In this document: piece by piece, positions 4,902-31,327 of the stretch
Layout of the letters: every line of letters starts with the position of its first letter
Position numbering within the stretch: position 1 is the first letter of the stretch
DNA from: Thermodesulfobacteriota bacterium
Lineage (GTDB): Bacteria; Desulfobacterota_D; UBA1144; Nemesobacterales; CSP1-2
Assembly: GCA_035559815.1 (NCBI GenBank)
Contig: DATMAT010000004.1
Span: 1-53,727, forward strand
Direction of reading: 5' to 3'
Length of the DNA: 53,727 nucleotides
Position numbers and translations under genes: made by a program
The notes under the pieces: generated by a model
Told to the model about the DNA's origin: nothing
Seen by the model: the letters and a program-made list of their open reading frames with translations, nothing else
Database searches by the model: none

Positions 4902-5895
4902 GCGGTTGCACCATCCTTCTAACAGTCGTAATAATGGTTTCAACCTGTGGTAATGCCGCCTGCTCCATGTGCCTTGCGTAGGGCATGGGCACTTCCGCAC
5001 TACAGATTCGTTCAACCGGGGTATCCAGATCGTAGAAAGCCCCCTCCATGATTCTTGCGCTGACCTCAGCGGAAATGCTCCCACTGCGCCACCCTTCGTC
5101 TACGATTAGAGCACGATGTGTTTTTGTAACTGAGTCGAGAAAAGTTCGGTCGTCTAAAGGACGGAGGGTTCTAAGGTCAATTACTTCGGCCTCGATACCC
5201 TCTTCAGACAACGCTTGGGCTGCATCCAGTGCTTTAAACAGGCTGGCACTATAGCTAATAATAGTCAAGTCGCTACCGTGACGGCGTATTCGGGCCTGGT
5301 CAATGTCCACCGGACCGGCGTTGGGGGAGATCTCTCCGCTCATGTTATATAAACCGGCGTGCTCAAATATTAAGACTGGGTCCGGGTCCTCTAACGCAGT
5401 CCAAAGCATACCCCGTGCATCTTCTATAGTTGCTGGGGTCAGCACCTTAATCCCAGGGATGTGTGCATCCCATCCTTCCAAGCTATGTGAATGTTGTGCC
5501 GCGAGCTGTCTTCCTCCGCCAGTGGCCATTCTTATGACCAGAGGAACGTTGAACTGACCCCCTGACATATGCAGATATTTAGCAGCGTTGTTGACGATTT
5601 GGTCCATAGCCAGAAGGCTGAAGTTGACAGTCATAATTTCCACGATCGGTCTCATGCCGCCAAGCGCAGCGCCGATACCAGTGCCAACAAAGGTTGATTC
5701 CGATAGCGGTGTGTCCCTTATGCGCTCAGGCCCAAATTCCTCCAGTAATCCCATGCTGACTGCATAGGCCCCACCGTATCGTCCTACATCCTCTCCCATA
5801 AGAAATACGCGTTCGTCCTTTTGCATAGCTTCACGTATCGCCTGCCTGACCGCCTCACGGTAGGTAAGTTTGATTCCCTGCTTATCGTTTTTCAT
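4894..5895 (-). CDS. Pyruvate/2-oxoacid dehydrogenase E1 component, beta subunit
   Basis: A 333-residue transketolase-type beta subunit: N-terminal [28 protein letters not shown], then [16 protein letters not shown], and a C-terminal transketolase domain with [11 protein letters not shown] and VDEGWRSG. It pairs with the E1alpha encoded just upstream to form the thiamine diphosphate-dependent decarboxylase. Start ATG 5895 overlaps the E1alpha stop (5882-5884) by 14 nt. Length is normal and no defect is seen. Confidence 0.92.
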
Positions 5896-6899
5896 TGTGC
5901 TCCCGTTCGGAGTAGACGAACCGCGTCAGGTCTTCTAACGGTTCCCACGAGCCCGCCTCGGCGAAGGCAACGGCTTCTTCGATTTCGGTTGCCACTTTCC
6001 GCTCGATTTCCTCTAAATCGGTCTTGTTGAACAATCCCCGGTCCTTGAGATTTTGGGTTAGAGTAACGATGGGATCGCGTTTTTTCCACTCTTCGACCTC
6101 CGACTTACTCCGATATAACTCGGCGTCGAACATAGAGTGAGCCCTAAAACGGTATGTACGGCACTCCAGGAAGAAAGGCCGATTCCTGGCACGCACTGCC
6201 GCCGCTGCGTGTCTGGCTGCCCCCTCTACCGCCAACACGTCCATGCCGTCTACGGTTTGTGCTGGTACTGCATAAGGCAGCGGCTTTACTGGCTAGGTCG
6301 GTGACGGAGTGTGAGAATCTGATTGCCGTCCCCATGGCATAGAGGTTGTTCTCGCAGACAAACAGGACCGGGAGTTGCCACAAAGCGGCCAGGTTCATCG
6401 ACTCATGAAATTCCCCTTCGGCAACTGCTCCGTCGCCGAAGAAGCAACAGGTTACCTGTTGCCTTCCCTGCATCTTATCTGCTAGCGCTAGCCCTACGGC
6501 AAGGGGAAGTCCGCCTCCGACGATAGCGTTCCCGCCGTATAATCTAGTTTTGACATCGAAAAGATGCATTGAACCCCCTCGTCCTCGGCTGCAACCCTCC
6601 AGTTTGCCATACATCTCTGCCAGGATGACACCCACTGGCATTCCCCTTAGGAGCGCATGGGCGTGCTCACGATACGTGGCTACCACATTATCTTCCGGTT
6701 TTAGCGCCTCTATAACACCGACGGCCACTGCTTCCTCTCCGATGTAAAGGTGAAGGAATCCCCGAATTTTCATGGCGCTGTAAAGTTCGGCTGATTTTTC
6801 CTCCAAGCGACGGATGCGGAGCATCTGGTGCAAGAGGTGCATCGTGTGCTCACGGTCTATCTGGACTTGGATATTTTTTTTATTTGGTCTTTTAGTCAC
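5882..6899 (-). pseudogene. Pyruvate/2-oxoacid dehydrogenase E1 alpha subunit, interrupted by a one-base frameshift
   Basis: Two frames together give a complete E1alpha of about 338 residues. Residues 1-207 read from GTG 6899 and carry the thiamine diphosphate motif ([15 protein letters not shown] through [10 protein letters not shown]). The frame is lost after LASKAAA. One base earlier in the AA pair at 6274-6275 (TT on the coding strand) the other frame continues [15 protein letters not shown] and runs to 5882 with the usual C-terminal [14 protein letters not shown]. Deleting a single T restores the whole protein. The start codon overlaps the acsA stop (GTGA). Either the gene is newly inactivated, it is rescued by recoding, or the base is a sequencing error; the intact flanking operon favours error or a recent event. 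Confidence 0.8.
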
Positions 6900-8674
6900 T
6901 CGCCTGTCTCCAGAGTGGATAAATCTCCCTCCGGTAATCCCAGCTCTCTTGCCTTTAGCAATCGCCTCATGATCTTGCCGCTACGAGTCCGGGGAAGGTT
7001 CTCTATAAATTGGATCTCCTTGGGAGCCACGGCTGAGCCAAGCTTCTTACGTGCGAACCCCAGTAACTCTAAACGAAGCTGGTGGTTAGGCTCTACACCC
7101 GGTTTTAAGGAAACGAAGGCCTTCACCAGTTCGCCTATGGTTGGGTCGGGTTTGCCGATGACGCCGGCTTCGGCCACCGCTGGATGCTCCATTAGTGCGC
7201 TTTCTACCTCGAATGGGCCGACCATGTGGCCCGAGGTCTTGATGATATCGTCTGCACGGCCAACAAACCAGAAATAACCATCCTCATCCCTCTTGGCCAA
7301 GTCGCCAGTAATATACCAGCCACCAACGAAGCACTTCTGATAGCGCTTCTCGTCGTGCAGGTACTCTCTGAACATGGAGGGCCAACCGGGCTTGAGCGCC
7401 AAGTCACCTTCTACTCCGGGTTCTTTTACTACTTTAACCGTGTTTTCATCTAAACGGTGGACGATCTCCGCCTCGACCCCGGGAAGTGGAAGTCCCATAG
7501 AGCCAGGGCGAATATCTACGGATGGAAAATTAGCAATCATGATTCCACCTATCTCGGTCTGCCACCAGTTATCGTGAATCGGTAAACCCAGTACTCGTTG
7601 CCCCCAAACGACTGCTTCAGGATTAAGAGGCTCTCCGACGCTGTGGATTAGTCGGAGTTGGCTCAAGTCATATTGCTCTTTCGGGTTGATATTCGTGCGC
7701 ATCAACATACGGATGGCGGTAGGAGCTGTGTACCAGATATTTACCTTTTGTTCCTCCAGTATGCCATACCAGCGCGGTGCATCAAAGTCTGCCTCGTCAA
7801 CGATGTTGGTGATGCCGTGCGCCAGCGGTGCAATGATTCCGTAGGAGGTGCCGGTTACCCACCCCGGATCGGCGGTACACCAGAATACGTCTTGAGGATG
7901 GAAGTCCAACACGTATTTCCCGGTTATGTAATGGGTAAGAACAGCATTGTGCACATGAACCGCTCCCTTGGGCATCCCGGTTGTGCCGCTGGTAAAATGC
8001 AGAATGGCCATGTCATCCGGGTCAGTCGGTGAGATGGTAAAGTCACCAGATGCCTCTGACATTAGCTTAGGTAGTGACCATACACCTTCGCTTATATCTT
8101 CCTCTACGTCTGCAAGAAGTATGTGCTTGAGCTGAGGCAGTCGGTCTCTCAAGCTGGCAACTTTCCTTTTATATTGCCCCTCGGTGGTCATCAGAACCAT
8201 GGCGTCTCCTCTACTCAAGCGCTGGTAGATTGGCTCGGGCCCAAAGGCGGAGAAAAGGGGGCAAAAGACGCTTATGTTTTTCAGCGTGCCAAGTGCAGTC
8301 AAATATAGTTTAGGAATGCGTCCGGCCAGAGCAAATACTTTATCACCTTTTTTCACTCCTAGTTTTCCAAGAACATTGGCAAAGCGATTGGTCTTTTCCT
8401 TTAGGTCAGCATAGGTGAAGTCAGCTGCTTGACCATCTTTTCCAAGCCAGCGCATAGCCAGATGGCCACGTTTAGGTCCGTCGGCATGTCGATCAACTGC
8501 TTCATGGGCTATATTCAAGCCTTTGCCATTTGGTAAACCATCAAGCTCTCGACGAACTTCCTCCCAGGAGAATCTGGTATACGTTTCCCGGTAATCTAAA
8601 AGATTTGGTTGGACAGCATACGTACTTGGGAATTTTTTTATTACATCAACCATGTTTTGGTCCGCAAATACCAA
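6896..8674 (-). CDS. acsA: Acetate--CoA ligase (AMP-forming acetyl-CoA synthetase)
   Basis: A 592-residue ANL-superfamily enzyme that activates acetate with ATP and CoA to acetyl-CoA through acetyl-AMP. Visible motifs are the P-loop [11 protein letters not shown] (about residues 230-240), the A5-type region [32 protein letters not shown], and the C-terminal [11 protein letters not shown] whose lysine is the usual regulatory acetylation site. Length fits the shorter AcsA branch rather than the 650-residue Acs branch. It is the first gene of the operon acsA-E1alpha-E1beta-E2-acp. A sigma-54 promoter lies at 8756-8770, giving a predicted leader of about 70 nt. Placing acetate activation beside pyruvate oxidation makes this an acetyl-CoA supply operon. 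Confidence 0.93.
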
Positions 8675-8755: not shown

Positions 8756-8770
8756 GCAAAGCTTATGCCA
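8756..8770 (-). promoter_or_regulatory. Sigma-54 promoter of the acsA-PDH-acp operon
   Basis: On the minus strand the site reads TGGCATAAGCTTTGC, matching the sigma-54 consensus TGGCAC-N5-TTGC with the invariant GG-N10-GC spacing. Predicted transcription start is about 8744, 70 nt before acsA. The shared palindrome at 8844-8867 lies about 75 bp upstream, a normal place for an enhancer-binding protein. Confidence 0.75.
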
Positions 8771-8843
8771 TCTGGCCAATTTCAGAAAACTTATTAAAAC
8801 TAGTAGGATAATCAACTGGCAAACTTTCTTTCTGGATAAGAGC

Positions 8844-8867
8844 TGTCAGAATTTAAGACATCTGACA
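8844..8867. promoter_or_regulatory. Shared palindromic upstream activator site, copy A
   Basis: Arms TGTCAG and CTGACA are perfect inverted repeats separated by 12 bp; on the minus strand the core between them reads ATGTCTTAAATT. Near-identical copies lie at 11822-11845, 18059-18082 and 30750-30770. Here it sits in the 361-bp gap between acsA and the ZIP gene, flanked by a sigma-54 promoter for each. The rest of the gap shows no gene. Confidence 0.7.
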
Positions 8868-8992
8868 AAGTGATAGCCGGTATTGATTAAAGGTATCTGT
8901 TGAAAGTTTTATTTCTTAAACTCTATCGAATATACAAATCATGAGCACTATCACGGATGATAGATTAAATAGGTATACTCAAAGCTTCTTTT

Positions 8993-9008
8993 GGGCCTTT
9001 TTTTTGCA
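8993..9008 (+). promoter_or_regulatory. Candidate sigma-54 promoter of the ZIP transporter
   Basis: GGGCC followed by a T8 run and GCA keeps the GG-N10-GC spacing (GG 8994-8995, GC 9006-9007) with a strong -12 TTTGCA but a weaker -24 box. Predicted start about 9019 leaves only a 17-nt leader that begins at the Shine-Dalgarno AAAGGAG, which is tight. The shared palindrome is about 125 bp upstream. Confidence 0.45.
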
Positions 9009-9035: not shown

Positions 9036-9848
9036 ATGCTCGATTTTTTTCTCGATTTACACCCTATAGTTCAAGCCTTTCTGGCCACCTGTTTTACCTG
9101 GGGAATGACTGCTCTCGGGGCAGCCACCGTTTTCTTGGCTAAGGACCTAAGCAGGAAGATATTGGATGGAATGCTCGGTTTTTCCGGAGGGGTTATGATA
9201 GCGGCCAGCATCTGGTCCCTACTTATCCCTTCGATCAGGATGTCTGAAGCAAGTGACCTCCCAGCCTGGTTTCCGGCCGTGGCAGGCTTTCTTATCGGAG
9301 GAGCTTTTCTCTTGAGCGTTGACAGAATATTGCCTCACCTTCATCTAGGATTCCCTACGCAAGAGGCTGAGGGAATTAAGACAAACTGGCAGCGGGTTAT
9401 ATTGCTTATTCTAGCCATAACCCTGCATAACATACCGGAAGGTCTTGCCGTTGGAGTGGCATTTGGGGCAGTTCTGTCTGGTCTTTCCGATGGGACGCTA
9501 TTCTCTGCTATCGCTCTGGCAGTCGGAATAGGAATTCAAAATTTTCCAGAAGGAGTGGCTGTAGCCATGCCCCTTCGCCGAGAGGGAATGCCAAGACTTA
9601 AGTGTTTTTGGTATGGGCAACTGTCTGCTGTCGTCGAGCCTGTAGCCGCCGTTATGGGAGCGGGGGCAGTTATCCTTATGCAACCCATACTGCCCTATGC
9701 CTTGAGCTTTGCTGCGGGAGCCATGATATTTGTGGTGATCGAAGAACTGGTCCCGGAATCTCAACGCGGCGGGAACGTGGATTTATCTACCATAGGGGTA
9801 ATGCTGGGCTTTGTGGTGATGATGATACTGGATGTGTCGTTTGGATGA
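9036..9848 (+). CDS. ZIP-family divalent metal transporter
   Basis: A 270-residue polytopic inner-membrane protein of the GufA/ZupT branch. The two metal-coordinating helices carry HNIPEGLAVGVAFG (about residues 132-145) and GIQNFPEGVAVAMP (about 168-181), the diagnostic HNxPEG and QNxPEG motifs. The linker between helices III and IV (residues 92-118) has only HLHLG, not a long histidine loop. It probably imports zinc or other divalent cations. AAAGGAG precedes the ATG. It is divergent from acsA and apparently monocistronic, sharing the palindrome-containing regulatory gap, which suggests co-control of a metal transporter with acetate metabolism. Confidence 0.88.
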   Translation: MLDFFLDLHPIVQAFLATCFTWGMTALGAATVFLAKDLSRKILDGMLGFSGGVMIAASIWSLLIPSIRMSEASDLPAWFPAVAGFLIGGAFLLSVDRILPHLHLGFPTQEAEGIKTNWQRVILLILAITLHNIPEGLAVGVAFGAVLSGLSDGTLFSAIALAVGIGIQNFPEGVAVAMPLRREGMPRLKCFWYGQLSAVVEPVAAVMGAGAVILMQPILPYALSFAAGAMIFVVIEELVPESQRGGNVDLSTIGVMLGFVVMMILDVSFG

Positions 9849-10468: not shown

Positions 10469-11023
10469 TTAAGTCTTCGAGGAAATAAGCCCGTATTTCC
10501 CGCTTTTTTTCCTATATATAACGTTTATCTCCTCCGTTTCTGCGTTTCTGAAAGGCAGAAAAAATCTTCCCTCATCCTGCAGCACCATGAGTGCCTCTTC
10601 TACGCTAAGCGGTTTCAATATCGGGAATTTTTCTTCCACCACGAGCTCGAGTGGGAGGGGGGAAACCTCTTCGGTATGGCTTTTGGCCTTTTCTCTGGCA
10701 ATTTCTTTTCTCCTCTCAAGACGCCTCTCTTTCAACCGGTTAAGCTGTCTCTCTATATCGTCTAGTGTAAACTCCAATGACCTATAAATATCGTTACTCT
10801 CCTCCCATGCGTGCAAGGTTCCCCCACCCGGGGTTTTCAGGTACACATCTATATCCACACGATGACGCTGTCTGTGCTTCTCTACATTGAAGGTTACGAC
10901 TACCTCTACTTCACCCTCACCTACTTCCCGGAGGTGTTGTTCGAATGACGAAAGCTTGTGCTCGACATAACTCCTCAAATCCTCAGACACGTCTATGCCT
11001 TTTCCTATAAGCTCTATGTTCAT
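10469..11023 (-). CDS. hpf: Ribosome hibernation promoting factor, long form
   Basis: 184 residues with the two domains of long HPF. The N-terminal S30AE/YfiA domain spans residues 1-105 (MNIELIGKGIDVSEDLRSYVEHKL, HRVDIDVYLKTPGG, DIYRSLEFTLDDIERQL); a charged linker follows; the C-terminal dimerisation domain spans about residues 130-184 (FPILKPLSVEEALMVLQ, FLPFRNAETEEINVIYRKKSGKYGLI). Long HPF pairs 70S ribosomes into inactive 100S dimers during starvation. ATG 11023 overlaps the stop of the phosphoribosyltransferase (11020), so both are translated from one transcript whose sigma-54 promoter lies at 11732-11746. Ribosome dormancy under sigma-54 fits the stress theme here. Confidence 0.92.
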   Translation of the reverse strand: MNIELIGKGIDVSEDLRSYVEHKLSSFEQHLREVGEGEVEVVVTFNVEKHRQRHRVDIDVYLKTPGGGTLHAWEESNDIYRSLEFTLDDIERQLNRLKERRLERRKEIAREKAKSHTEEVSPLPLELVVEEKFPILKPLSVEEALMVLQDEGRFFLPFRNAETEEINVIYRKKSGKYGLISSKT

Positions 11024-11715
11024 TCACTTCCCTCCTTATGAAATTTATCTCTTTTCTTGCTTTCATCCAGATATTTCTTAACTTCCTCGTCCGATACCTG
11101 TCTGAAGTCGAAGTAGTGCACGCCAACTGCTATGAAGGGAGAAGGTGTGTGCAGAATGACTAGCTTGTCGGCAAGCCCGGATAGTTCCTCAATCATATCG
11201 CGAGGCGCTACCGGCACGGCTACGATTAATTCCTTAACCCGAGAAGCCTTAAGAGCGCGTATGCTGGCTATCATGGTTGCCCCGGTGGCTACTCCATCGT
11301 CGACCAGAATTACTGTTTTTCCAGAAAGAGGAGGTGATTCCACTCCGCCCCGGTAAAGCATCTGACGGCGTTTAATCTCCTTTTTTTGGTAGGATATTTC
11401 TTGCTCTAAATACCCATCCGGACAGTAATCCATCAAATCTTGGTTAAGGAATACCTCTCCATTTTCAGCCAACGCTCCCAGTGCCAACTCCGGGTTATCC
11501 GGAAACCTCAATTTCCTGGTTATGAAAACATCCAGAGGAGCACCTAGGGTTTTAGCCACCTCAAAGGCAACCGGAACCCCGCCTCGCGGCAGGGCCAATA
11601 CCATTAGATTCTCGGCTGCTTTATATTTCTTGAGCCTTTCGGCTAGTTTTATTCCGGCCTCTTTTCTATCATGAAAGAGCTTATTTTCTTCTTCACGCAC
11701 CATTTGACTACCCAT
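11020..11715 (-). CDS. Phosphoribosyltransferase-domain protein
   Basis: A type I PRTase fold protein of up to 231 residues: LALPRGGVPVAFEVAKTLGAPLDVFITRKL near the N-terminus and the PRPP loop VILVDDGVATGATM (about residues 135-148). This ComF-like stand-alone family often sits with stress and low-oxygen genes; its substrate is unknown. Start choice is uncertain: ATG 11715, ATG 11703 or GTG 11700, none with a Shine-Dalgarno; the predicted sigma-54 start near 11720 would make the 11715 start almost leaderless. It overlaps hpf by 4 nt. Confidence 0.82.
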   Translation of the reverse strand: MGSQMVREEENKLFHDRKEAGIKLAERLKKYKAAENLMVLALPRGGVPVAFEVAKTLGAPLDVFITRKLRFPDNPELALGALAENGEVFLNQDLMDYCPDGYLEQEISYQKKEIKRRQMLYRGGVESPPLSGKTVILVDDGVATGATMIASIRALKASRVKELIVAVPVAPRDMIEELSGLADKLVILHTPSPFIAVGVHYFDFRQVSDEEVKKYLDESKKRDKFHKEGSE

Positions 11716-11731
11716 TTTAAATGTTTTAATA

Positions 11732-11746
11732 GCAAACAGTATGCCA
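11732..11746 (-). promoter_or_regulatory. Sigma-54 promoter of phosphoribosyltransferase-hpf
   Basis: The minus strand reads TGGCATACTGTTTGC, an excellent match with GG-N10-GC spacing. The predicted start is about 11720. The shared palindrome lies about 75-100 bp upstream at 11822-11845. Confidence 0.72.
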
Positions 11747-11821
11747 ATAGCTTTCTAAGGAGTAATGCCTCAAAACCCATTAATTAAATTTAGTTAACCC
11801 AACCGACTTGGGAATCGCTAT

Positions 11822-11845
11822 TGTCAGTTGTCTTAAATTCTGACG
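11822..11845. promoter_or_regulatory. Shared palindromic upstream activator site, copy B
   Basis: TGTCAG, core TTGTCTTAAATT, then CTGACG. Relative to copy A it differs at two of 24 positions. It lies between two divergent sigma-54 promoters (11732-11746 minus, 11919-11933 plus) in a 333-bp gap that holds no gene. Confidence 0.72.
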
Positions 11846-11918
11846 GATAAAAACCTTGTACAATAATGTATTCTACTCAATCTTCAAATACTTGGGCAGG
11901 TTAGGGTCGGTGATTAGT

Positions 11919-11933
11919 TGGCATATTGTTTGC
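11919..11933 (+). promoter_or_regulatory. Sigma-54 promoter of the YbaK-family gene
   Basis: TGGCATATTGTTTGC matches TGGCAC-N5-TTGC with exact spacing. Predicted start is about 11945, giving a leader of about 104 nt before ATG 12049. The shared palindrome is about 75 bp upstream. Confidence 0.74.
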
Positions 11934-12048: not shown

Positions 12049-12522
12049 ATGTCGGTTTCCGAGAGATTAAAGGATTTTCTTGACCAGAACAAAATCAAAT
12101 ACAATCTGATCTCACACTCTAAGGCGTATACGGCTCAGGAATTAGCGCACAAGATGCATATCTCCGGACTGGAAATAGCCAAGGTAGTCATTGTCAAAAC
12201 GGACGGCCAATTTGCCATGGCGGTTATGCCCGCACCGCATCATATCGATTTCGGCAGGTTTAAAGAAGCCACTGGAATTAAGAATGTTGAGCTGGCTACG
12301 GAGAGGGAATTTAAGAATCTATTCCCGGATTGTGAGGTTGGAGCGATGCCCCCTTTCGGCAATTTATACGGTCTACCTGTTTATGTGGCTAAGCCCTTAG
12401 AAGAAGACGAATACATTGTGTTTAACGCCGGCAGCCATACCGAAGCTATTCGCATGGAATATAGAGAGTTCGAACGATTGGTAAAACCGATCGTGATTGA
12501 ATACACAAGAGCAGGAAAGTAG
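12049..12522 (+). CDS. YbaK/ProX-family aminoacyl-tRNA deacylase-like protein
   Basis: A 157-residue protein of the YbaK/EbsC superfamily: LIEHSKAYTAQE-type N-terminus (LISHSKAYTAQELAH), KVVIVKTDGQFAMAVMPA with the conserved lysine, and the C-terminal GAMPPFGNLYGLPVYV followed by NAGSHTEAIRM. Such proteins hydrolyse mischarged aminoacyl-tRNA in trans. GGGGAGG precedes the ATG. It is monocistronic, divergent from phosphoribosyltransferase-hpf, and preceded by a strong sigma-54 promoter. Family is firm; the amino acid edited is unknown. Confidence 0.85.
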   Translation: MSVSERLKDFLDQNKIKYNLISHSKAYTAQELAHKMHISGLEIAKVVIVKTDGQFAMAVMPAPHHIDFGRFKEATGIKNVELATEREFKNLFPDCEVGAMPPFGNLYGLPVYVAKPLEEDEYIVFNAGSHTEAIRMEYREFERLVKPIVIEYTRAGK

Positions 12523-17037: not shown

Positions 17038-17052
17038 TGGTATAAGACTTGC
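17038..17052 (+). promoter_or_regulatory. Candidate sigma-54 promoter of rpoH
   Basis: TGGTATAAGACTTGC keeps GG-N10-GC with a good -12. The predicted start, about 17064, coincides with the first ATG of rpoH, which would make the message leaderless; this either argues for a downstream start codon or against the promoter. An inverted pair GGACAA/TTGTCC lies at about 16966-16992. Confidence 0.45.
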
Positions 17053-17063
17053 TTGAAAATTAC

Positions 17064-17951
17064 ATGATGGTAGAAATTAAGGAAGACAAGGTAAAAGAGC
17101 ATTCTCATGACAAATCGTTTCCTGCTGCTACAACCTCTATGGAGCGATATCTGGCCGAGATAAGCAATTATCCTATCCTTAGCCGAAAAGAAGAGTATGA
17201 ACTGGCAATGAGATACAAAGAGAGTGGAGACCTGGAGGCGGCCAGGAAGTTGGTTACCTCGAACCTTAGATTTGTGGTGAAGATTGCCAATGAATATAAA
17301 AGCTACGGGTTAAACCTGTTGGACTTAATACAGGAGGGGAATATCGGCTTGATGCAGGCGGTGAAGGCATTTGACCCAACGAAAGGATATCGGCTTATCT
17401 CTTATGCTGTTTGGTGGATAAGGGCATACATTCAAAATTACATCATTAAAAACTGGAGCCTGGTTAAAATGGGCACGACCCAGGCGCAGAGGAAGCTGTT
17501 TTATAAGCTGCGCTCAGCCAAGAATAAGATGGGAATAACGGATGAAATGCTCAGTCCTGAGGGTTATCAAAAATTAGCGGAAGAACTAGGGGTCACTGAT
17601 GAGAGCGTAATAGAGATGGAGAAGAGAATGGGCGGCAAAGACCTGTCGCTTGATACGGAGGTGGCAGCCGGGTCAGAGGCGAAACATATTGATTTGCTGG
17701 TGGGCGAAGTATCGAGTCAGGAAGAAATGATTACGAATATTCAGGAAAGAGAAAAGCTTAAGAACGAGTTAAACCTTGCCCTTAAAACGCTCGATGAGAG
17801 GGAACTCCTTATAATTAGGAACCGGATTCTTAGAGACAAGCCAATGACGCTGAGGGAGCTGGGCAGGAGGCTCAACATCTCGGCGGAACGGGTAAGGCAG
17901 GTCGAGGCGATGGCCGTAAAAAAGATAAAATCTTTTTTTGAAAAGCAGTAG
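17064..17951 (+). CDS. rpoH: RNA polymerase sigma-32 factor (heat shock sigma)
   Basis: About 295 residues. Region 1.2 is SMERYLAEISNYPILSRKEEYELA; region 2 is LVTSNLRFVVKIANEYKSYGLNLLDLIQEGNIGLMQAVKAFDPTKGYRLISYAVWWIRAYI written across residues about 60-120; the RpoH-type box SLVKMGTTQAQRKLFYKLR follows; region 4 has LRELGRRLNISAERVRQVE as the -35-binding helix-turn-helix. The open frame extends to a TTG at 17049; I prefer ATG 17064 (or 17067), though neither has a Shine-Dalgarno. It stands alone, divergent from rtcA. Confidence 0.9.
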   Translation: MMVEIKEDKVKEHSHDKSFPAATTSMERYLAEISNYPILSRKEEYELAMRYKESGDLEAARKLVTSNLRFVVKIANEYKSYGLNLLDLIQEGNIGLMQAVKAFDPTKGYRLISYAVWWIRAYIQNYIIKNWSLVKMGTTQAQRKLFYKLRSAKNKMGITDEMLSPEGYQKLAEELGVTDESVIEMEKRMGGKDLSLDTEVAAGSEAKHIDLLVGEVSSQEEMITNIQEREKLKNELNLALKTLDERELLIIRNRILRDKPMTLRELGRRLNISAERVRQVEAMAVKKIKSFFEKQ

Positions 17952-18058: not shown

Positions 18059-18082
18059 TGTCTGATGTCTTAGATTCTGACA
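18059..18082. promoter_or_regulatory. Shared palindromic upstream activator site, copy C
   Basis: TGTCTG, core ATGTCTTAGATT, then CTGACA; on the outside one more base pair (C and G) extends the dyad. It lies about 75 bp upstream of a strong sigma-54 promoter for the alcohol dehydrogenase. Confidence 0.72.
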
Positions 18083-18157
18083 GTTTCATTTGTTATTTTC
18101 CACTATCAATAAACAACAACCTGAAGAATGGCTAATAAAATAAACAATTTTTTAGTC

Positions 18158-18172
18158 TGGCATGAATGTTGC
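18158..18172 (+). promoter_or_regulatory. Sigma-54 promoter of the alcohol dehydrogenase gene
   Basis: TGGCATGAATGTTGC matches TGGCAC-N5-TTGC with exact spacing. Predicted start is about 18184, leaving a 22-nt leader that contains AAGGGAGGTG before ATG 18206. Confidence 0.78.
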
Positions 18173-18205: not shown

Positions 18206-19264
18206 ATGAAGATGAGGGCAAATGTTTTCAAGGGGGCAAATAAGATTGGCCTCGAAGACCGTCCTGTTCCAAAGGCCGGCTTCGGCGAGGCGGTGGTTAA
18301 GGTTACTCTCACTACCATCTGCGGTACCGATGTTCACATAATGAAAGGAGAGTACCCGGTTAAGGTTGGCCAAATCATAGGGCATGAGCCGGTCGGCGTA
18401 ATCCACGAGCTCGGCGATGGGGTAACCGGTTACAAATTAGGGGAGCGTGTGGCGGTTAACGCAATAACCCCTTGCGGCCAGTGTGAATACTGTCTATCGG
18501 CAAACTGGGCCCAGTGTGGAGGATTTCTGGGTGGATGGAAGATGGGAAACACGATTGATGGGTGCCAGGCCGATTACGTCAGGATCCCCAACGCCATGGC
18601 CAATTTGACCAGGATTCCGGACGAGCTTTCCGACGAGGATGTATTATTCACCACCGATATATTCTCCACCGGCCTTTCCGGTGCGGAGAGCGGAGATATC
18701 AAGGTTGGAGACATAGTGGCTGTGTTTGGGCAGGGGCCAATCGGTTTAAGTGCTACCGCCGGGGCCAAGCTTAAAGGCGCCGCCCTGATCATAGCCGTAG
18801 ACTCGGTTCCACCCCGGATGGAAATGTCCAAGAAGATGGGAGCAGATATTGTTATCAATTTCAAGAAGGTAGACCCGGTTAAAGAGATAATGAAGATTAC
18901 GAACGGAAGGGGAGTGGACGTGTCCATAGAGGCGATAGGCTTGCAGGAGACATTTGAGAATTGCGTAAAGTCTACCCGGGTAGGTGGAACCATATCGAGC
19001 CTTGGTGTTTATCCGGCTCATCTCGGGAATATCGGCGTGCCCCTTCCGGATTTCGGGTTCGGCATAGCCGATAAGAAGATCGTTTCTACCCTGTGCCCGG
19101 GCGGAAAAGAAAGAATGAGAAGGCTGATTTCCTTGGTCAAGAACGAAAGGGTTAATTTAAGACAGCTCATTACCCACAGATTTTCATTGGACGAGATAGA
19201 GGAGGCTTACCGAATATTCTCGAATCAGCTTGACGGGGTCATCAAGGTGGCGATAAAGCCTTGA
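18206..19264 (+). CDS. Zinc-dependent medium-chain alcohol dehydrogenase
   Basis: 352 residues. The catalytic zinc site is supplied by CGTDVHIMKG (Cys about 38) and GHEPVGVI (His-Glu about 61-62). The structural zinc loop CGQCEYCLSANWAQC has all four cysteines. The Rossmann domain has VAVFGQGPIGLSATAGAKLKG (residues about 172-192) and the nucleotide-binding acidic residue in VDSVPPRMEMSKKMGAD. The overall sequence is closest to the threonine/secondary-alcohol/isopropanol dehydrogenase branch. It would interconvert an alcohol and aldehyde or ketone with NAD(P). Copy C of the palindrome and a sigma-54 promoter control it; it appears monocistronic. Confidence 0.88.
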   Translation: MKMRANVFKGANKIGLEDRPVPKAGFGEAVVKVTLTTICGTDVHIMKGEYPVKVGQIIGHEPVGVIHELGDGVTGYKLGERVAVNAITPCGQCEYCLSANWAQCGGFLGGWKMGNTIDGCQADYVRIPNAMANLTRIPDELSDEDVLFTTDIFSTGLSGAESGDIKVGDIVAVFGQGPIGLSATAGAKLKGAALIIAVDSVPPRMEMSKKMGADIVINFKKVDPVKEIMKITNGRGVDVSIEAIGLQETFENCVKSTRVGGTISSLGVYPAHLGNIGVPLPDFGFGIADKKIVSTLCPGGKERMRRLISLVKNERVNLRQLITHRFSLDEIEEAYRIFSNQLDGVIKVAIKP

Positions 19265-26133: not shown

Positions 26134-29100
26134 TCAGACTGGGAACGTTATCTTAAATTCTGTTCCGCTACTCGTGTCCAGCTCTATCGTGCCCTTTAGT
26201 TGGTCGGTTAACGCACACACCAACTGCAAACCTACCGATTCAGTGTTTCGAAAGTCTAAATCTTCTGGGAACTTAATGCCGTTATTGCTAATGATGAGAT
26301 GACACAGATGAGGCGTTGAGTTATCTTTGCCATAATTAGCTTTGCTGCTTGAATGAAGAGCGATTCGAATTTTCCCTTTCTTTTTCACCAGAAAGCCGTG
26401 TTTCAGGGCGTTAGAGACAATTTCGTTGATGATCAAACTGCAGGGAATCGCTTTATCAATGCTGAGATAAACATTGTCTGCTTCTATACTCAGTTTGATG
26501 TCTTTGGAATTTGCTCCATAAGAACTGAACAGATGGGTTGATAATTCTTTGATGTATTCCCTAAAGTCAATTCTGGCAAAATCTTTGAATTGATATAACG
26601 TTTCATGGATGAGCGCAATCGATTTAATGCGGTTTTGACTTTGCTTTAGCTTTTCACGCGTCCGTAAATCGTCGATACGGCTGGATTGAAGGTTGAGCAA
26701 ACTGTGAATAATCTGCAAATTGTTTTTGACCCTGTGGTGAATTTCCTTGAGCAGCACTTCTTTTTCTTTTAGCGAGGCTTTGATTTGTTCTTCTGCCAGC
26801 TTTCGCTCTGATGCCTCCAAAGCCAGTGAAACCATATCGGCAATCGAAGCCGCAAAATCTTGTTCTTCGACGGTCCACTCCCTCATGGACCCGGTATGCT
26901 CATGACCGATAATCCCTACAACCTCTCCGTGAACTCGGACAGGGACATCCATCATAGAAGTAATACCCAGTGGCTTCAAATACCCTTCTGTGTATTCTTG
27001 AGTACGGGGGTCGAAGCGAGCGTCATTTGCCGCTAGAATGCGACTCTCTTCCAGGGCCCGAAAATAGTTAGGATAATCCTGGGTCTTGAGCCTTAATCCG
27101 CTCTCATGAATGTTCTCGCTCAATTTGTAAAGATCCTTGCAGATAATTTCCGAATGGTCCTTGCTGTAATGCCAGACACTAACCCGTTCTACGCCGAGTG
27201 TTTTAGCGTCTGCCTCGGTTAACTTCTTCAGCGCTGAGTCCAGGTCAGAATTATCCATTTTAGCCAGTTTCAAGAGTACTCTTTGATAACGAAGAACCTG
27301 CTCAGTTCTTTTTCTTAGAGTTTCTTCCGCACGCTTGCGCTCCGTTATTTCCCTGGTTAATTCCTTGTTTATGTCGATTAACTCCTTTGTTCGGTCATAA
27401 ACTCGTAATTCGAGTTCTTCCTTTGCCTTTTGCAGTGCCTCTGCCTGCTTGGCGTTTTTAATCGCTATCTCAATTTGTTGGGCTACAGTTCCCAATAGGT
27501 TTAGCTCTTCTTCATCAAAAGCATTCTTCTGTAAAGAGTTGATGTTTATAGTTCCTACTGTCTTCCCTTGATAGCGGATAGGCATAGAAGCATAACTCTT
27601 CGTCCCCAATTCTCTTCCAGCTGGGCCAATAACCGTATCTTGGTCTACATCCGCACAATACCTTGGCTTCCCCTCTATGATCGTCTTCCAGGTAAAGCCT
27701 TTCGGATGGGGGATTCTTCCCACTCGCTTAATAAACCATTCGGGATAGCCTCTATAAGCCTTTAAAACCGCCTGTGGTGAGCCTGTCGAAACTGCATCTT
27801 CTCGTTCTACTAGGTAAATTGAGATGTTATCTGCTTCATCTATATTCTGCTTCATTGTCTCAACAGCATTTTCCAAGACGTCTTGAAGGTTGATTGACTG
27901 ATGGACGCTGCGAGTCACGGTGCTGATTATGGTTTCGTAACGATTCTTTTTAGATAGCTGGCCAAGGCCTTGGTTTAGGTCCGCTTCGCGCTGTTTTATT
28001 TCTTCAAACATCCTTGTCTTTGCTATAGCTATGGCAATCTGGTTACCGAGGGTGGAAAGTAAGTTTGCTTCCTTTTCATTAAACTTACGTTCTTTGTGGC
28101 TTAGAAACCACATAACGCCTATGGCTCTTTTTTCCAGAAATATAGGTATGCCCAAAGCACTATGATGTCCCAGTTCTCTACCGGCAGGGCCTATATCCGG
28201 GTCTTTTTGAATGTCCTCGACATTCAGTATCTTGCCGGTATTAATCACCTTCCAAGTTAATCCCTTAGGATGTGGTATTATGCCCGCTCTTTTTATATAG
28301 CCTTCGGGAAGGTTTCTATGAGCTTTGATTACCGCATCGCATTTTTCTTCGTCTACCAGGTAAATCATTGCTATATCTACGTTTTCCAGTTCCGTAACTG
28401 AGTTTAGAGCGACATTGTAGACCTCCTCCAGATTAGAAGATTTATGTACCGCTTGAATAAGGCTGGTTAGTATTTCTAAATCCTTTACTTTTACTTCTAG
28501 CTCTTCTTTGGCTTTTCGGTAGAGTTCTTCCGACCGCCTTAGCGCCTCTGCTTGTTGGGCGTTGTTTATCGCTACATCTATCTGCTGTGCAACGATACCC
28601 AACAGTTTTAACTCCTCATCATCGAAAGCATTTTTTTTAAAAGAGTCAATTTTTATACACCCTACCGTCCTACCCTCAGAACGAATGGGCATGGACAAAT
28701 AGCTCTTCGTTCCCAATTGTCTTCCGGCAGGGCCAATATGGATATCCTTGTCTACATCCGAGCAATACCTGGGGATTCCATCTATAATGGTTCTCCATGT
28801 AGCCCCTTTCGGATAAGGAATACGTCTAACTCGTTTCACAAACCAATCCGGGTATCCTCTGTAAGCCCTTAAAATCGCCTCTTTTCCTTCCACCAAGTAA
28901 ATTGAGACGTTTTCAGCTACGTCTATATTCTTGCTCATAACCTCGACCGCGTTTTCCAGAACTTCGGGGAGGTTGATAGAATGATGGACACTCCGGGTAA
29001 CGGTGCTAATGATTGCCTCGTATCGGTTCTTTTTGGATAACTGTGCAAGATTCTCCCTGAGTGCTTCCTCCGTCTGCCTACGCACAGTAATGTCTTCAAC

Positions 29101-30006
29101 TGTTCCTTCATAATACAACACAGCACCGTCCTCTCCTCGGATAGCTCTTGCATTTTCTCGAATAAAGATGAAAGTACCGTCAAGCTTCACCCATTGGGAC
29201 TCCAGGCCTATTACTTCGTCTTTCTGGTCGAGGAGTTCCTTGAAGTGCTTCCGGTAATGTACAGGCTGAAACCCTCCTTCTTTTTCCAGGTTGTGCGCGG
29301 CTAGATCATCGAAGGAGGAATATCCGAGCATTCGAATTAGAGCCGGATTGGCCATGAGGATGCGCCCATCCGGAGTTGTACGATAGATTCCAGTGGGACT
29401 ATTTTGAAAAAGATCCTTGTACTGTTTCTCGCTTTCTCTAAGCTCCTCCTCTAACCTCTTTTGTTGGGTGATGTCAAGAATAGTTATGATGAAATTACTA
29501 AAGTTCCCCTCACGATCGAATATCCCTCTGCCTTCCAGGTGGGCGTAGAATGGAGTCCCGTCCTTTCTAAGCATCTTGAGTTCGCCGGCTTGCCGGGTTT
29601 TAGGCTCGAGAAGCCGTTTTCGGTAATAATAAAATAGGTCCAGGCTTTCCTTCGATACATATTGAATAAAGGCTCCTTTGATTAGCTTCTCCCTTTCTAT
29701 ACCTAATAAGGAAGCTCCGGTAAGATTTGCTCCAAGAATTATGCACTTTTCATTCAATGTAAAATATCCGACGGGAGCAAAATCATACAATTCAGCGTAC
29801 TTGTTGCGTGATTCTTCGAGCTCCATTTGCGCTTGCCGAAGCTGTTCGTTCTGCATCTCCAGTTCAGTCTGATGCTCTTTTAGTTGGTGTATCAACCTTT
29901 GAACTTTATCGTCTGAAACTTCTTCTAGACTTTCTTGTGTTTTGGGGGATATTTCTGCAATTGGCCGGGGAAAATGTTCTTTTTTACGTTGGTATTTATT
30001 CCCCAT
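26134..30006 (-). CDS. Multi-PAS/GAF sensor histidine kinase (HisKA_2 type)
   Basis: 1290 residues from ATG 30006, which follows GAGGGC; the frame extends to a GTG at 30024. There are no membrane segments, so it is a cytoplasmic sensor. Domains in order: coiled coil (20-65), PAS (about 70-180), PAS (190-310), GAF (340-490), GAF (520-675), GAF (705-860), coiled coil, GAF (945-1075), then a HisKA_2 dimerisation domain with the phospho-histidine in EIHHRVKNNLQIIHSLLNLQ (about 1087) and a HATPase (INEIVSNALKHGF). GAF 1, 2 and 3 are close to each other in sequence (KAYRGYP/ RIP.PKG.TW / IGPAGR.LG), so they arose by internal duplication. GAF domains of this kind often bind small ligands or haem. 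Confidence 0.88.
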   Translation of the reverse strand: MGNKYQRKKEHFPRPIAEISPKTQESLEEVSDDKVQRLIHQLKEHQTELEMQNEQLRQAQMELEESRNKYAELYDFAPVGYFTLNEKCIILGANLTGASLLGIEREKLIKGAFIQYVSKESLDLFYYYRKRLLEPKTRQAGELKMLRKDGTPFYAHLEGRGIFDREGNFSNFIITILDITQQKRLEEELRESEKQYKDLFQNSPTGIYRTTPDGRILMANPALIRMLGYSSFDDLAAHNLEKEGGFQPVHYRKHFKELLDQKDEVIGLESQWVKLDGTFIFIRENARAIRGEDGAVLYYEGTVEDITVRRQTEEALRENLAQLSKKNRYEAIISTVTRSVHHSINLPEVLENAVEVMSKNIDVAENVSIYLVEGKEAILRAYRGYPDWFVKRVRRIPYPKGATWRTIIDGIPRYCSDVDKDIHIGPAGRQLGTKSYLSMPIRSEGRTVGCIKIDSFKKNAFDDEELKLLGIVAQQIDVAINNAQQAEALRRSEELYRKAKEELEVKVKDLEILTSLIQAVHKSSNLEEVYNVALNSVTELENVDIAMIYLVDEEKCDAVIKAHRNLPEGYIKRAGIIPHPKGLTWKVINTGKILNVEDIQKDPDIGPAGRELGHHSALGIPIFLEKRAIGVMWFLSHKERKFNEKEANLLSTLGNQIAIAIAKTRMFEEIKQREADLNQGLGQLSKKNRYETIISTVTRSVHQSINLQDVLENAVETMKQNIDEADNISIYLVEREDAVSTGSPQAVLKAYRGYPEWFIKRVGRIPHPKGFTWKTIIEGKPRYCADVDQDTVIGPAGRELGTKSYASMPIRYQGKTVGTININSLQKNAFDEEELNLLGTVAQQIEIAIKNAKQAEALQKAKEELELRVYDRTKELIDINKELTREITERKRAEETLRKRTEQVLRYQRVLLKLAKMDNSDLDSALKKLTEADAKTLGVERVSVWHYSKDHSEIICKDLYKLSENIHESGLRLKTQDYPNYFRALEESRILAANDARFDPRTQEYTEGYLKPLGITSMMDVPVRVHGEVVGIIGHEHTGSMREWTVEEQDFAASIADMVSLALEASERKLAEEQIKASLKEKEVLLKEIHHRVKNNLQIIHSLLNLQSSRIDDLRTREKLKQSQNRIKSIALIHETLYQFKDFARIDFREYIKELSTHLFSSYGANSKDIKLSIEADNVYLSIDKAIPCSLIINEIVSNALKHGFLVKKKGKIRIALHSSSKANYGKDNSTPHLCHLIISNNGIKFPEDLDFRNTESVGLQLVCALTDQLKGTIELDTSSGTEFKITFPV

Positions 30007-30019
30007 TGATAAGCCCTCG

Positions 30020-30042
30020 ACCACCCCTTTTGGGGTAGGGAT
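30020..30042 (-). promoter_or_regulatory. Hairpin just upstream of the sensor kinase start
   Basis: On the coding (minus) strand CCTACCCC, AAAA, GGGGTGG forms a short stable stem-loop ending about 15 nt before ATG 30006, immediately ahead of the GAGGGC ribosome-binding site. It may affect translation or be the end of a short leader. Confidence 0.35.
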
Positions 30043-30375: not shown

Positions 30376-30612
30376 CTATTCCACCCCGGCTTTGGCTGCC
30401 TCCTCTAGAATTTTCCTGGCTTTATCTATGGCCATTTCTTTGACTTTTGTCTCCTCTCCCTTATGGTTTGCTACATTGACTACTACGGTAACGGTCATAT
30501 ACCTGCCTTTTACTTCTTCATCTTTCACCATATATCCAATGGTTACTTCATAGGCTTGTCTTCCGGAATTGTAGTTGGTGCTTATGACGTAGAGTGAGCT
30601 TTCGTCAGACAT
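30376..30612 (-). CDS. Small hypothetical protein
   Basis: 78 residues: SSLYVISTNYNSGRQAYEVTIGYMVKDEEVKGRYMTV followed by an alternating-strand region and a C-terminal helix KVKEMAIDKARKILEEAAKAG. Predicted alpha/beta, soluble, family not recognised. CCAGGAGGC lies 6 nt before the ATG. It is divergent from the CBS-domain gene and shares with it copy D of the palindrome; a sigma-54-like site precedes it. Confidence 0.65.
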   Translation of the reverse strand: MSDESSLYVISTNYNSGRQAYEVTIGYMVKDEEVKGRYMTVTVVVNVANHKGEETKVKEMAIDKARKILEEAAKAGVE

Positions 30613-30684: not shown

Positions 30685-30699
30685 TCAAACGGAGTGCCA
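30685..30699 (-). promoter_or_regulatory. Candidate sigma-54 promoter of the 78-residue hypothetical gene
   Basis: The minus strand reads TGGCACTCCGTTTGA: a perfect -24 box and TTTG at -12, but GA in place of GC. Predicted start about 30674 gives a 62-nt leader. The palindrome lies 50-70 bp upstream. Confidence 0.5.
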
Positions 30700-30749
30700 A
30701 TGATTTTTTTCAATAAAATGACCGAGTTTGAAATTAACACCCTGAGCAT

Positions 30750-30770
30750 GGTGTCTTATTTCCTGACACC
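30750..30770. promoter_or_regulatory. Shared palindromic upstream activator site, copy D
   Basis: GGTGTC, TTATTTCCT, GACACC. Over the 19-bp core it matches copy A at 15 positions and forms its own tight dyad with 6-bp perfect arms. It sits between two divergent sigma-54-type promoters. Confidence 0.6.
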
Positions 30771-30849
30771 TGACATCTGCGGGGTGTTGTGTAGCTTGAA
30801 ATCATGACGAAATATTGAGGAATGTGGCCCTATCTCCTATAATCTATTC

Positions 30850-30864
30850 AGGCACATGAATTGC
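30850..30864 (+). promoter_or_regulatory. Sigma-54 promoter of the CBS-domain gene
   Basis: AGGCACATGAATTGC matches the consensus at every key position except the first base. Predicted start about 30876 lies downstream of an in-frame ATG at 30866, so that ATG cannot be used; ATG 30905, with AAAGGAGAG, is the real start. Confidence 0.75.
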
Positions 30865-30904
30865 CATGTATATCAACATTACAACTACAAAAGGAGAGAT
30901 AGCG

Positions 30905-31327
30905 ATGATCGCAAAAGATGTGATGAAGGCCAATGTTATTACCGTGTCGCCGTCCACCCCGGTTTCCGAGGCCGCACTCTTGATGAGGAATGAGGACATA
31001 GGAGCACTGGTAGTAGTTGATACTGCCGGGAGGCCGGTGGGCATAGTAACGGACCGGGATATAGTGATTTCGATCGTGGCCGACGGCGACAACCCTGCTG
31101 ATTTTGTGGTCGAAGATATCATGAGCAAGAACCTGCACCTGGTTCAGGAGGATGAAAGTATATTCGGGATACTCAAGATTCTGGGAAAGCATTCCATAAG
31201 AAGGGTCCCAGTATTGAGAAAGGGAAAGCTAGTGGGAATAGTTTCGGTTGACGACCTGATTGTGGTCATCACCACCGAACTCTCCAACCTAGCCTCGGCT
31301 CTCAGCAGCACTTCTAAGGTTCTTTGA
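30905..31327 (+). CDS. CBS-domain pair protein
   Basis: 140 residues made of two CBS motifs: IAKDVMKANVITVSPSTPVSEAALLM with VDTAGRPVGIVTDRDI, then VEDIMSKNLHLVQEDESIFGILKILG with VLRKGKLVGIVSVDDL. Stand-alone CBS pairs (Bateman modules) bind adenosine nucleotides and act as energy sensors; many belong to hypoxia/stress regulons. The start at 30905 is fixed by its ribosome-binding site and the promoter position. A perfect 28-bp palindrome lies just downstream. Confidence 0.88.
   Translation: MIAKDVMKANVITVSPSTPVSEAALLMRNEDIGALVVVDTAGRPVGIVTDRDIVISIVADGDNPADFVVEDIMSKNLHLVQEDESIFGILKILGKHSIRRVPVLRKGKLVGIVSVDDLIVVITTELSNLASALSSTSKVL

Follow-up and report, generated by a model that had tools for sequence, protein, structure and literature searches.

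A recurrent three-half-site element as the predicted enhancer of an NtrC-type, sigma-54-dependent regulon in Candidatus Dadabacteria

A 24-bp element with a wide distribution within one clade of Candidatus Dadabacteria most likely represents, with a probability of about 0.88, the upstream activating sequence of a single NtrC-family regulator that drives a low-oxygen/low-energy sigma-54 programme. The sharing of sites between intergenic regions was confirmed, and their reading as sigma-54 activator sites was supported by motif, conservation, promoter linkage, helical phasing, domain content, and the co-occurrence and adjacency of the regulator, all of which were computed, while we infer binding and activation. 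According to the proposed mechanism, oxygen loss or a redox shift would be read by a FixL-like PAS domain of a multi-PAS histidine kinase, and the phosphorylated regulator would bind the 24-bp element through a 17-bp NtrC-like dyad plus a third, abutting TGTCAGA half-site. The bound regulator would activate sigma-54 RNA polymerase at promoters that flank the element on one side or on both, at a distance of roughly 55–90 bp and on the helix face that matches it. It would drive its own operon too, and the regulon as a whole would constitute a low-oxygen or low-energy programme of anaerobic metabolism and survival genes.

Four sites in the window and the genes beside them

The window, i.e. the whole stretch of 53,727 nucleotides that was analysed, had been described in a sequence-only reading as carrying four copies of one site. 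For three predicted activator sites this description held: site 1 (8844..8867, minus strand; TGTCAGATGTCTTAAATTCTGACA, the exact consensus), site 2 (11822..11845, plus strand; TGTCAGTTGTCTTAAATTCTGACG) and site 3 (18059..18082, plus strand; TGTCTGATGTCTTAGATTCTGACA) matched the 23-letter pattern TGTCNGNTGTCTTANATTCTGAC with 0 mismatches, and dinucleotide shuffles of the window gave 0.00 such matches. The fourth copy was real as well, but its register had to be shifted by 2–5 bp and it was assigned to the opposite strand (30752..30775, minus strand; TGTCAGGTGTCAGGAAATAAGACA). This predicted site 4 retained all three TGTC/GACA half-sites without the ATGTCTTAAATT core and was the weakest, scoring 15.4 bits versus 35–42 bits for the others, which counts against the favoured explanation.

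Seven GG-N10-GC promoters had been assigned to these sites, five of which are good matches to this pattern, while the one at 30685 (minus strand) ends in GA and the one at 8992 (plus strand) has a poor T-run. Site 1 is flanked by a predicted sigma-54 promoter at 8756..8771 (minus strand; ATGGCATAAGCTTTGC; orthologous position in G005, L071:2187), which points toward the acyl-CoA ligase/PDH-E1 genes, and by the weak sigma-54-like promoter at 8992..9007 (plus strand; TGGGCCTTTTTTTTGC), which points toward a ZIP metal transporter gene (9036..9848, plus strand; Pfam PF02535). In G005, the region orthologous to this weak promoter has a promoter at a similar place. The first gene of the leftward operon encodes an AMP-binding acyl/acetyl-CoA ligase (6896..8674, minus strand; Pfam PF00501). 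The PDH E1 homologue at 5882-6899 (minus strand) was split into two overlapping open reading frames, which cover positions 2-184 and 195-293 of the profile; the split suggests either a frameshift or an assembly error.

Site 2 lies between a predicted promoter at 11732..11747 (minus strand; TTGGCATACTGTTTGC) and another at 11918..11933 (plus strand; TTGGCATATTGTTTGC). The former is directed at a phosphoribosyltransferase gene (11020..11715, minus strand; Pfam PF00156), which is followed by the gene for HPF (S30AE; 10469-11023; Pfam PF02482), and the latter at a gene for a YbaK-like aminoacyl-tRNA editing protein (12049..12522, plus strand; Pfam PF04073). Next to site 3, a predicted promoter at 18157..18172 (plus strand; CTGGCATGAATGTTGC) faces the gene for a zinc alcohol dehydrogenase (18206..19264, plus strand; Pfam PF08240/PF00107). 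Just upstream of this site, positions 17049-17951 hold a relative of a sigma-70-family gene of G002. Site 4 is accompanied by the sigma-54-like GG-N10-GA promoter at 30685..30700 (minus strand; TTGGCACTCCGTTTGA), pointing toward an ORF of 78 amino acids (30376-30612), and by a predicted sigma-54 promoter at 30849..30864 (plus strand; CAGGCACATGAATTGC) ahead of a gene for a protein with two CBS domains (30866..31327, plus strand; Pfam PF00571). Farther downstream of the 78-amino-acid ORF, on the same strand, is the gene for a large PAS-GAF histidine kinase of the HisKA_2 type (26134-30024, minus strand); in the N-terminal region, one part shares 53% identity with the regulator-paired kinase described below, and the two kinase domains are of different types.

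Relatives from other genera carried the site ahead of the same genes, in agreement with what footprinting in relatives had been expected to show. In G005 it precedes the orthologues of the acyl-CoA ligase/ZIP pair, the PRTase-HPF/YbaK pair and the alcohol dehydrogenase gene; in G003 it precedes the YbaK orthologue; and in G002-G006 it precedes genes for CBS proteins of the family found beside site 4. The genome to which the window belongs, that of an uncultured organism, also has the rpoN gene on which the prediction depended, in a single copy (PF04552; G000:C17).

Architecture of the element and helical phasing of promoters

A matrix built from 36 copies gave the 24-bp consensus TGTCAGA-TGTC[T/A][T/G]A-[A/G/T][A/T][T/A]-TCTGACA, with similarity ending at the element edges and flanks holding 0.1–0.4 bits per column. 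The site had been taken for a plain palindrome, and positions 1-7 and 18-24 do form an outer palindrome. A simple two-arm architecture was not retained, as the element consists of three TGTCAGA half-sites, two arranged head to tail and one inverted. The 17-bp NtrC-like dyad, TGTCnnAnnnTnnGACA, occupies positions 8-24, and 17 bp is the size of an NtrC site. In 622 kb, the matrix at ≥9 bits yielded ~90 real matches versus 0 for the reversed matrix, and the relaxed 24-bp pattern with ≤3 mismatches gave 19 matches in the window genome versus 2 for the reversed control. The 17-bp core TGTCTTANNTTCTGACA alone was unspecific at the genome scale, where allowing 3 mismatches gave 97 matches for the core and 114 for the control, so that the full 24-bp element is needed. 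There may be a few sites that comprise only the 17 bp, including ones upstream of the regulator operons of G001 and G005, although some such matches arise by chance. No convincing independent example of the outer palindrome without the middle half-site was found.

The enhancer-binding-protein geometry that the sequence-only reading had recognised was borne out by the positions of the copies, and no scattering of the palindrome within genes lacking sigma-54 promoters was seen. In three genomes, 44 of 47 copies were intergenic, although intergenic sequence makes up 15% of the total, and in the Dadabacteria loci 57 of 58 copies had an outward-facing GG-N10-GC promoter within 300 bp, compared to 22% of random positions. 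With a stricter promoter score and intergenic controls, these proportions were 85% for sites and 9% for controls. The distances between the 24-mer centre and the first G of the -24 element clustered near 56, 67, 78 and 88 bp, with a step of about one DNA turn. This phasing was detected in each of three genomes separately (P = 7e-4, 4e-3 and 1e-3), these values being somewhat optimistic because period and axis had been picked on the pooled data beforehand. In a per-side test that allowed for the choice of period, none of 2000 random sets (0/2000) reached the observed value. Left and right promoters were in common phase when viewed from the 24-mer centre but not when viewed from the inner dyad, whose centre was rejected as a phasing axis with a fit of 0.21–0.28 versus 0.61–0.66 for the 24-mer centre at periods of 10.5–11.1. 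The 3.5 bp that separate the phasing axis from the centre of the 17-bp dyad count against the explanation that we favour.

A candidate cognate regulator

An NtrC-family regulator co-occurring with the site had been predicted, and such a protein was found by co-occurrence and adjacency. The candidate is an NtrC-type response regulator of 449 amino acids encoded outside the window together with a PAS histidine kinase (G000:C8:138904-140250), its gene being located ~4 kb from a site. It comprises a receiver domain, an AAA+ domain (PF00158) and a Fis-type HTH (PF02954), and the G-x-FTGA motif (GAFTGA or GSFTGA) was present in 15 of 15 aligned orthologues. The orthologues are 63–100% identical, compared to at most 44% for the next full-length relatives; the best relatives in Myxococcota among the top 80 matches are ~40% identical, no better than those in other phyla. 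As judged from sequence, we identify this protein as the cognate regulator with high confidence.

To score co-occurrence, 58 genomes from the phylum were searched, with ≤2 mismatches counting as presence of the motif, and the presence/absence profile was computed for the orthologue set of one activator out of the 23 strong PF00158 sigma-54 activators in the window genome. The motif was found in 19 of 20 genomes with a regulator orthologue and in 5 of 38 without (Fisher P = 8e-10), a value that overstates independence because the genomes are related, although the pattern recurs in three families. Among the five motif-bearing genomes without an orthologue, four had 1-2 marginal matches each, and G003 had 11 sites. 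The failure to find an orthologue in G003 counts against our explanation, but this assembly consists of 710 contigs and the gene may merely be missing from it. Of 20 regulator loci, 19 had a site no more than a few kb from the gene, and most of these loci lay outside the matrix-building set. In G007 (G007:C30, L131, 6850-8192) the orthologue is broken between frames, there is no nearby site, and the motif is absent from the genome. The surroundings of 74 other NtrC-type regulators, 946 kb in total, contained no site of ≥13 bits. In G005, a site (G005:C61:7126-7149) lies ~130 bp downstream of the gene for a paralogous NtrC-type regulator that is 43% identical.

In about nine genomes, a site with a sigma-54 promoter precedes the operon for a GNAT protein, the kinase and the regulator, which implies positive autoregulation. 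The regulator's own operon in G000 has a degenerate site only, which again counts against the favoured explanation.

Regulon content, probable signal and alternative readings

One regulon had been predicted over the window genes. This prediction was supported, except that the regulon extends beyond the window. Behind the sites we found genes for acyl-CoA ligase with PDH E1, ZIP, PRTase-HPF, YbaK, ADH, CBS and Hsp20 proteins; for PFOR, ferredoxins, cytochrome c, USP and a phosphate-selective porin; for a molybdate transporter, Rrf2, RtcB, radical-SAM enzymes, a FeoB-type GTPase and a sigma-70-family factor; and for hemerythrin, a molybdopterin oxidoreductase, citrate synthase, a cation ATPase and ArsD/ArsA. 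In G002, about fourteen sites fall within 75 kb (G002:C5, L067-L070) that include the regulator operon and form a stress/anaerobic island. The sigma-70-family gene of G002 (L068:2592-3654) is placed behind a site and a sigma-54 promoter, which suggests a sigma cascade. Two kinase genes, L066:7287-8576 in G000 and L074:2165-3412 in G005, also lie behind sites; their products have catalytic cores ~60% identical to that of the cognate kinase and are possible extra inputs to the cognate regulator.

The cognate kinase contains PAS, HisKA and HATPase domains only. Its third PAS domain aligns with the heme PAS of FixL (PDB 1dp6; E 3e-17) and, among characterised sensors, is closest to the heme PAS domains of FixL and DosP. 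The residues equivalent to FixL's heme-binding His and distal Arg were invariant in all 17 orthologous kinases that cover both positions, although PAS domains without heme binding may carry similar His/Arg motifs. Since oxygen-sensitive metabolism and survival genes are found together behind the sites, and since the kinase carries this FixL-like PAS domain with its invariant His and Arg, we regard low oxygen or redox as the probable signal. A reading that keeps the regulator and the site but makes energy, carbon or general starvation the signal would fit the dormancy and energy-stress genes for HPF, USP, CBS and Hsp20, as well as the frequent binding of adenine nucleotides by CBS and USP proteins (PMC11841059). 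This is a serious candidate that we nevertheless consider doubtful, because it leaves aside the FixL-like PAS domain and the genes behind sites for PFOR, ferredoxins, hemerythrin, cytochrome c, molybdopterin oxidoreductase, and molybdate and FeoB-type iron uptake.

Other readings concern the sites themselves. Were they to belong to another regulator, be it a different sigma-54 activator or a non-activator DNA-binding protein, the association described above would be indirect; the genome offers 23 strong PF00158 proteins for this role, and G003 has sites without a detected orthologue. Such an arrangement is improbable given the presence/absence match, the adjacency in three families, the sites inside the promoter of the regulator operon and their absence near the other NtrC-type regulators. 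Palindromes near promoters are typical of repressors too, so the sites could be operators for a repressor of sigma-54 promoters that depend on different activators. We judge this still less probable: the sites do not overlap the promoters but lie some 55-90 bp upstream, sigma-54 promoters require an upstream activator, and the linked protein is itself of the NtrC activator type. The many near-identical copies within one genome region might also be taken for an interspersed repeat or mobile element beside coincidental promoters. This reading was refuted by the data on position and phasing, the copies being intergenic and promoter-phased, and it also disagrees with the sharp loss of similarity at the 24-bp edges and with the conservation of the site ahead of the same genes across genera. 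Activation by the one NtrC-type regulator remains the reading that we prefer.

Several known systems resemble the one proposed here. The heme PAS of FixL appears similar to the third PAS domain by alignment and by the matching His and Arg residues, but FixL acts via FixJ, not via an NtrC-type activator. Universal stress proteins and related survival proteins, some of them clustered, are abundant in the gene lists of DosRS in Mycobacterium tuberculosis and of the lxa locus in Burkholderia cenocepacia, and DosR is not known to be a sigma-54 activator. Their low-oxygen gene sets are alike to ours (PMC6127331), the genes being analogous and the regulator type not homologous. Another such system is NmpRSTU in Myxococcus xanthus, where an NtrC-like regulator with sigma-54 governs genes for CBS and USP proteins, a cbb3 oxidase and hemerythrin in a hypoxia-induced regulon with an autoregulated operon (PMC11841059). 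The two systems share the NtrC-type regulator, sigma-54, the CBS, USP and hemerythrin genes and the driving of their own operon, but the NmpR site is GCGCA-N5-TGCGC in pairs instead of a three-half-site TGTCAGA element, and sensing proceeds through the protoglobin kinase NmpU and the hybrid relay NmpS instead of a PAS kinase (PMC11841059). Among the domains of the linked kinase, no counterpart of the protoglobin/hybrid NmpU-NmpS pair was present. NtrC, CbrB and Desulfovibrio sigma-54 regulons likewise have a REC-AAA+-HTH8 activator and a 17-bp dyad upstream of -24/-12 promoters (PMC4641369). Compared with NtrC-type enhancers, the element has another half-site sequence and a third, abutting half-site (Desulfovibrio motifs being compared by description; PMC4641369), as well as tight one-turn phasing with two divergent promoters that share a single site. 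In the literature searched, we encountered neither a regulator described as having this site nor anything about regulation in Dadabacteria. The operator and the sigma-54 regulon are new, whereas the kind of system is already known; the three-half-site operator is unusual and the one-turn phasing is clear.

It is conceivable, at somewhat less than even odds, that the enhancer, asymmetric and made of three half-sites, works as a two-way switch, in which one activator complex serves two divergent promoters at whole-turn distances from its centre, within a phylum-specific, oxygen-gated regulon in a genomic island of uncultured bacteria. The roughly 60 natural promoters, spaced in one-turn steps, provide unusually clean data on enhancer-promoter closeness and helix face. 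A phylum without such a regulon in the literature searched thereby gains a regulator, an operator and a likely signal, and dormancy-type genes are linked through sigma-54 with anaerobic metabolism, a parallel to DosR, lxa and NmpR.
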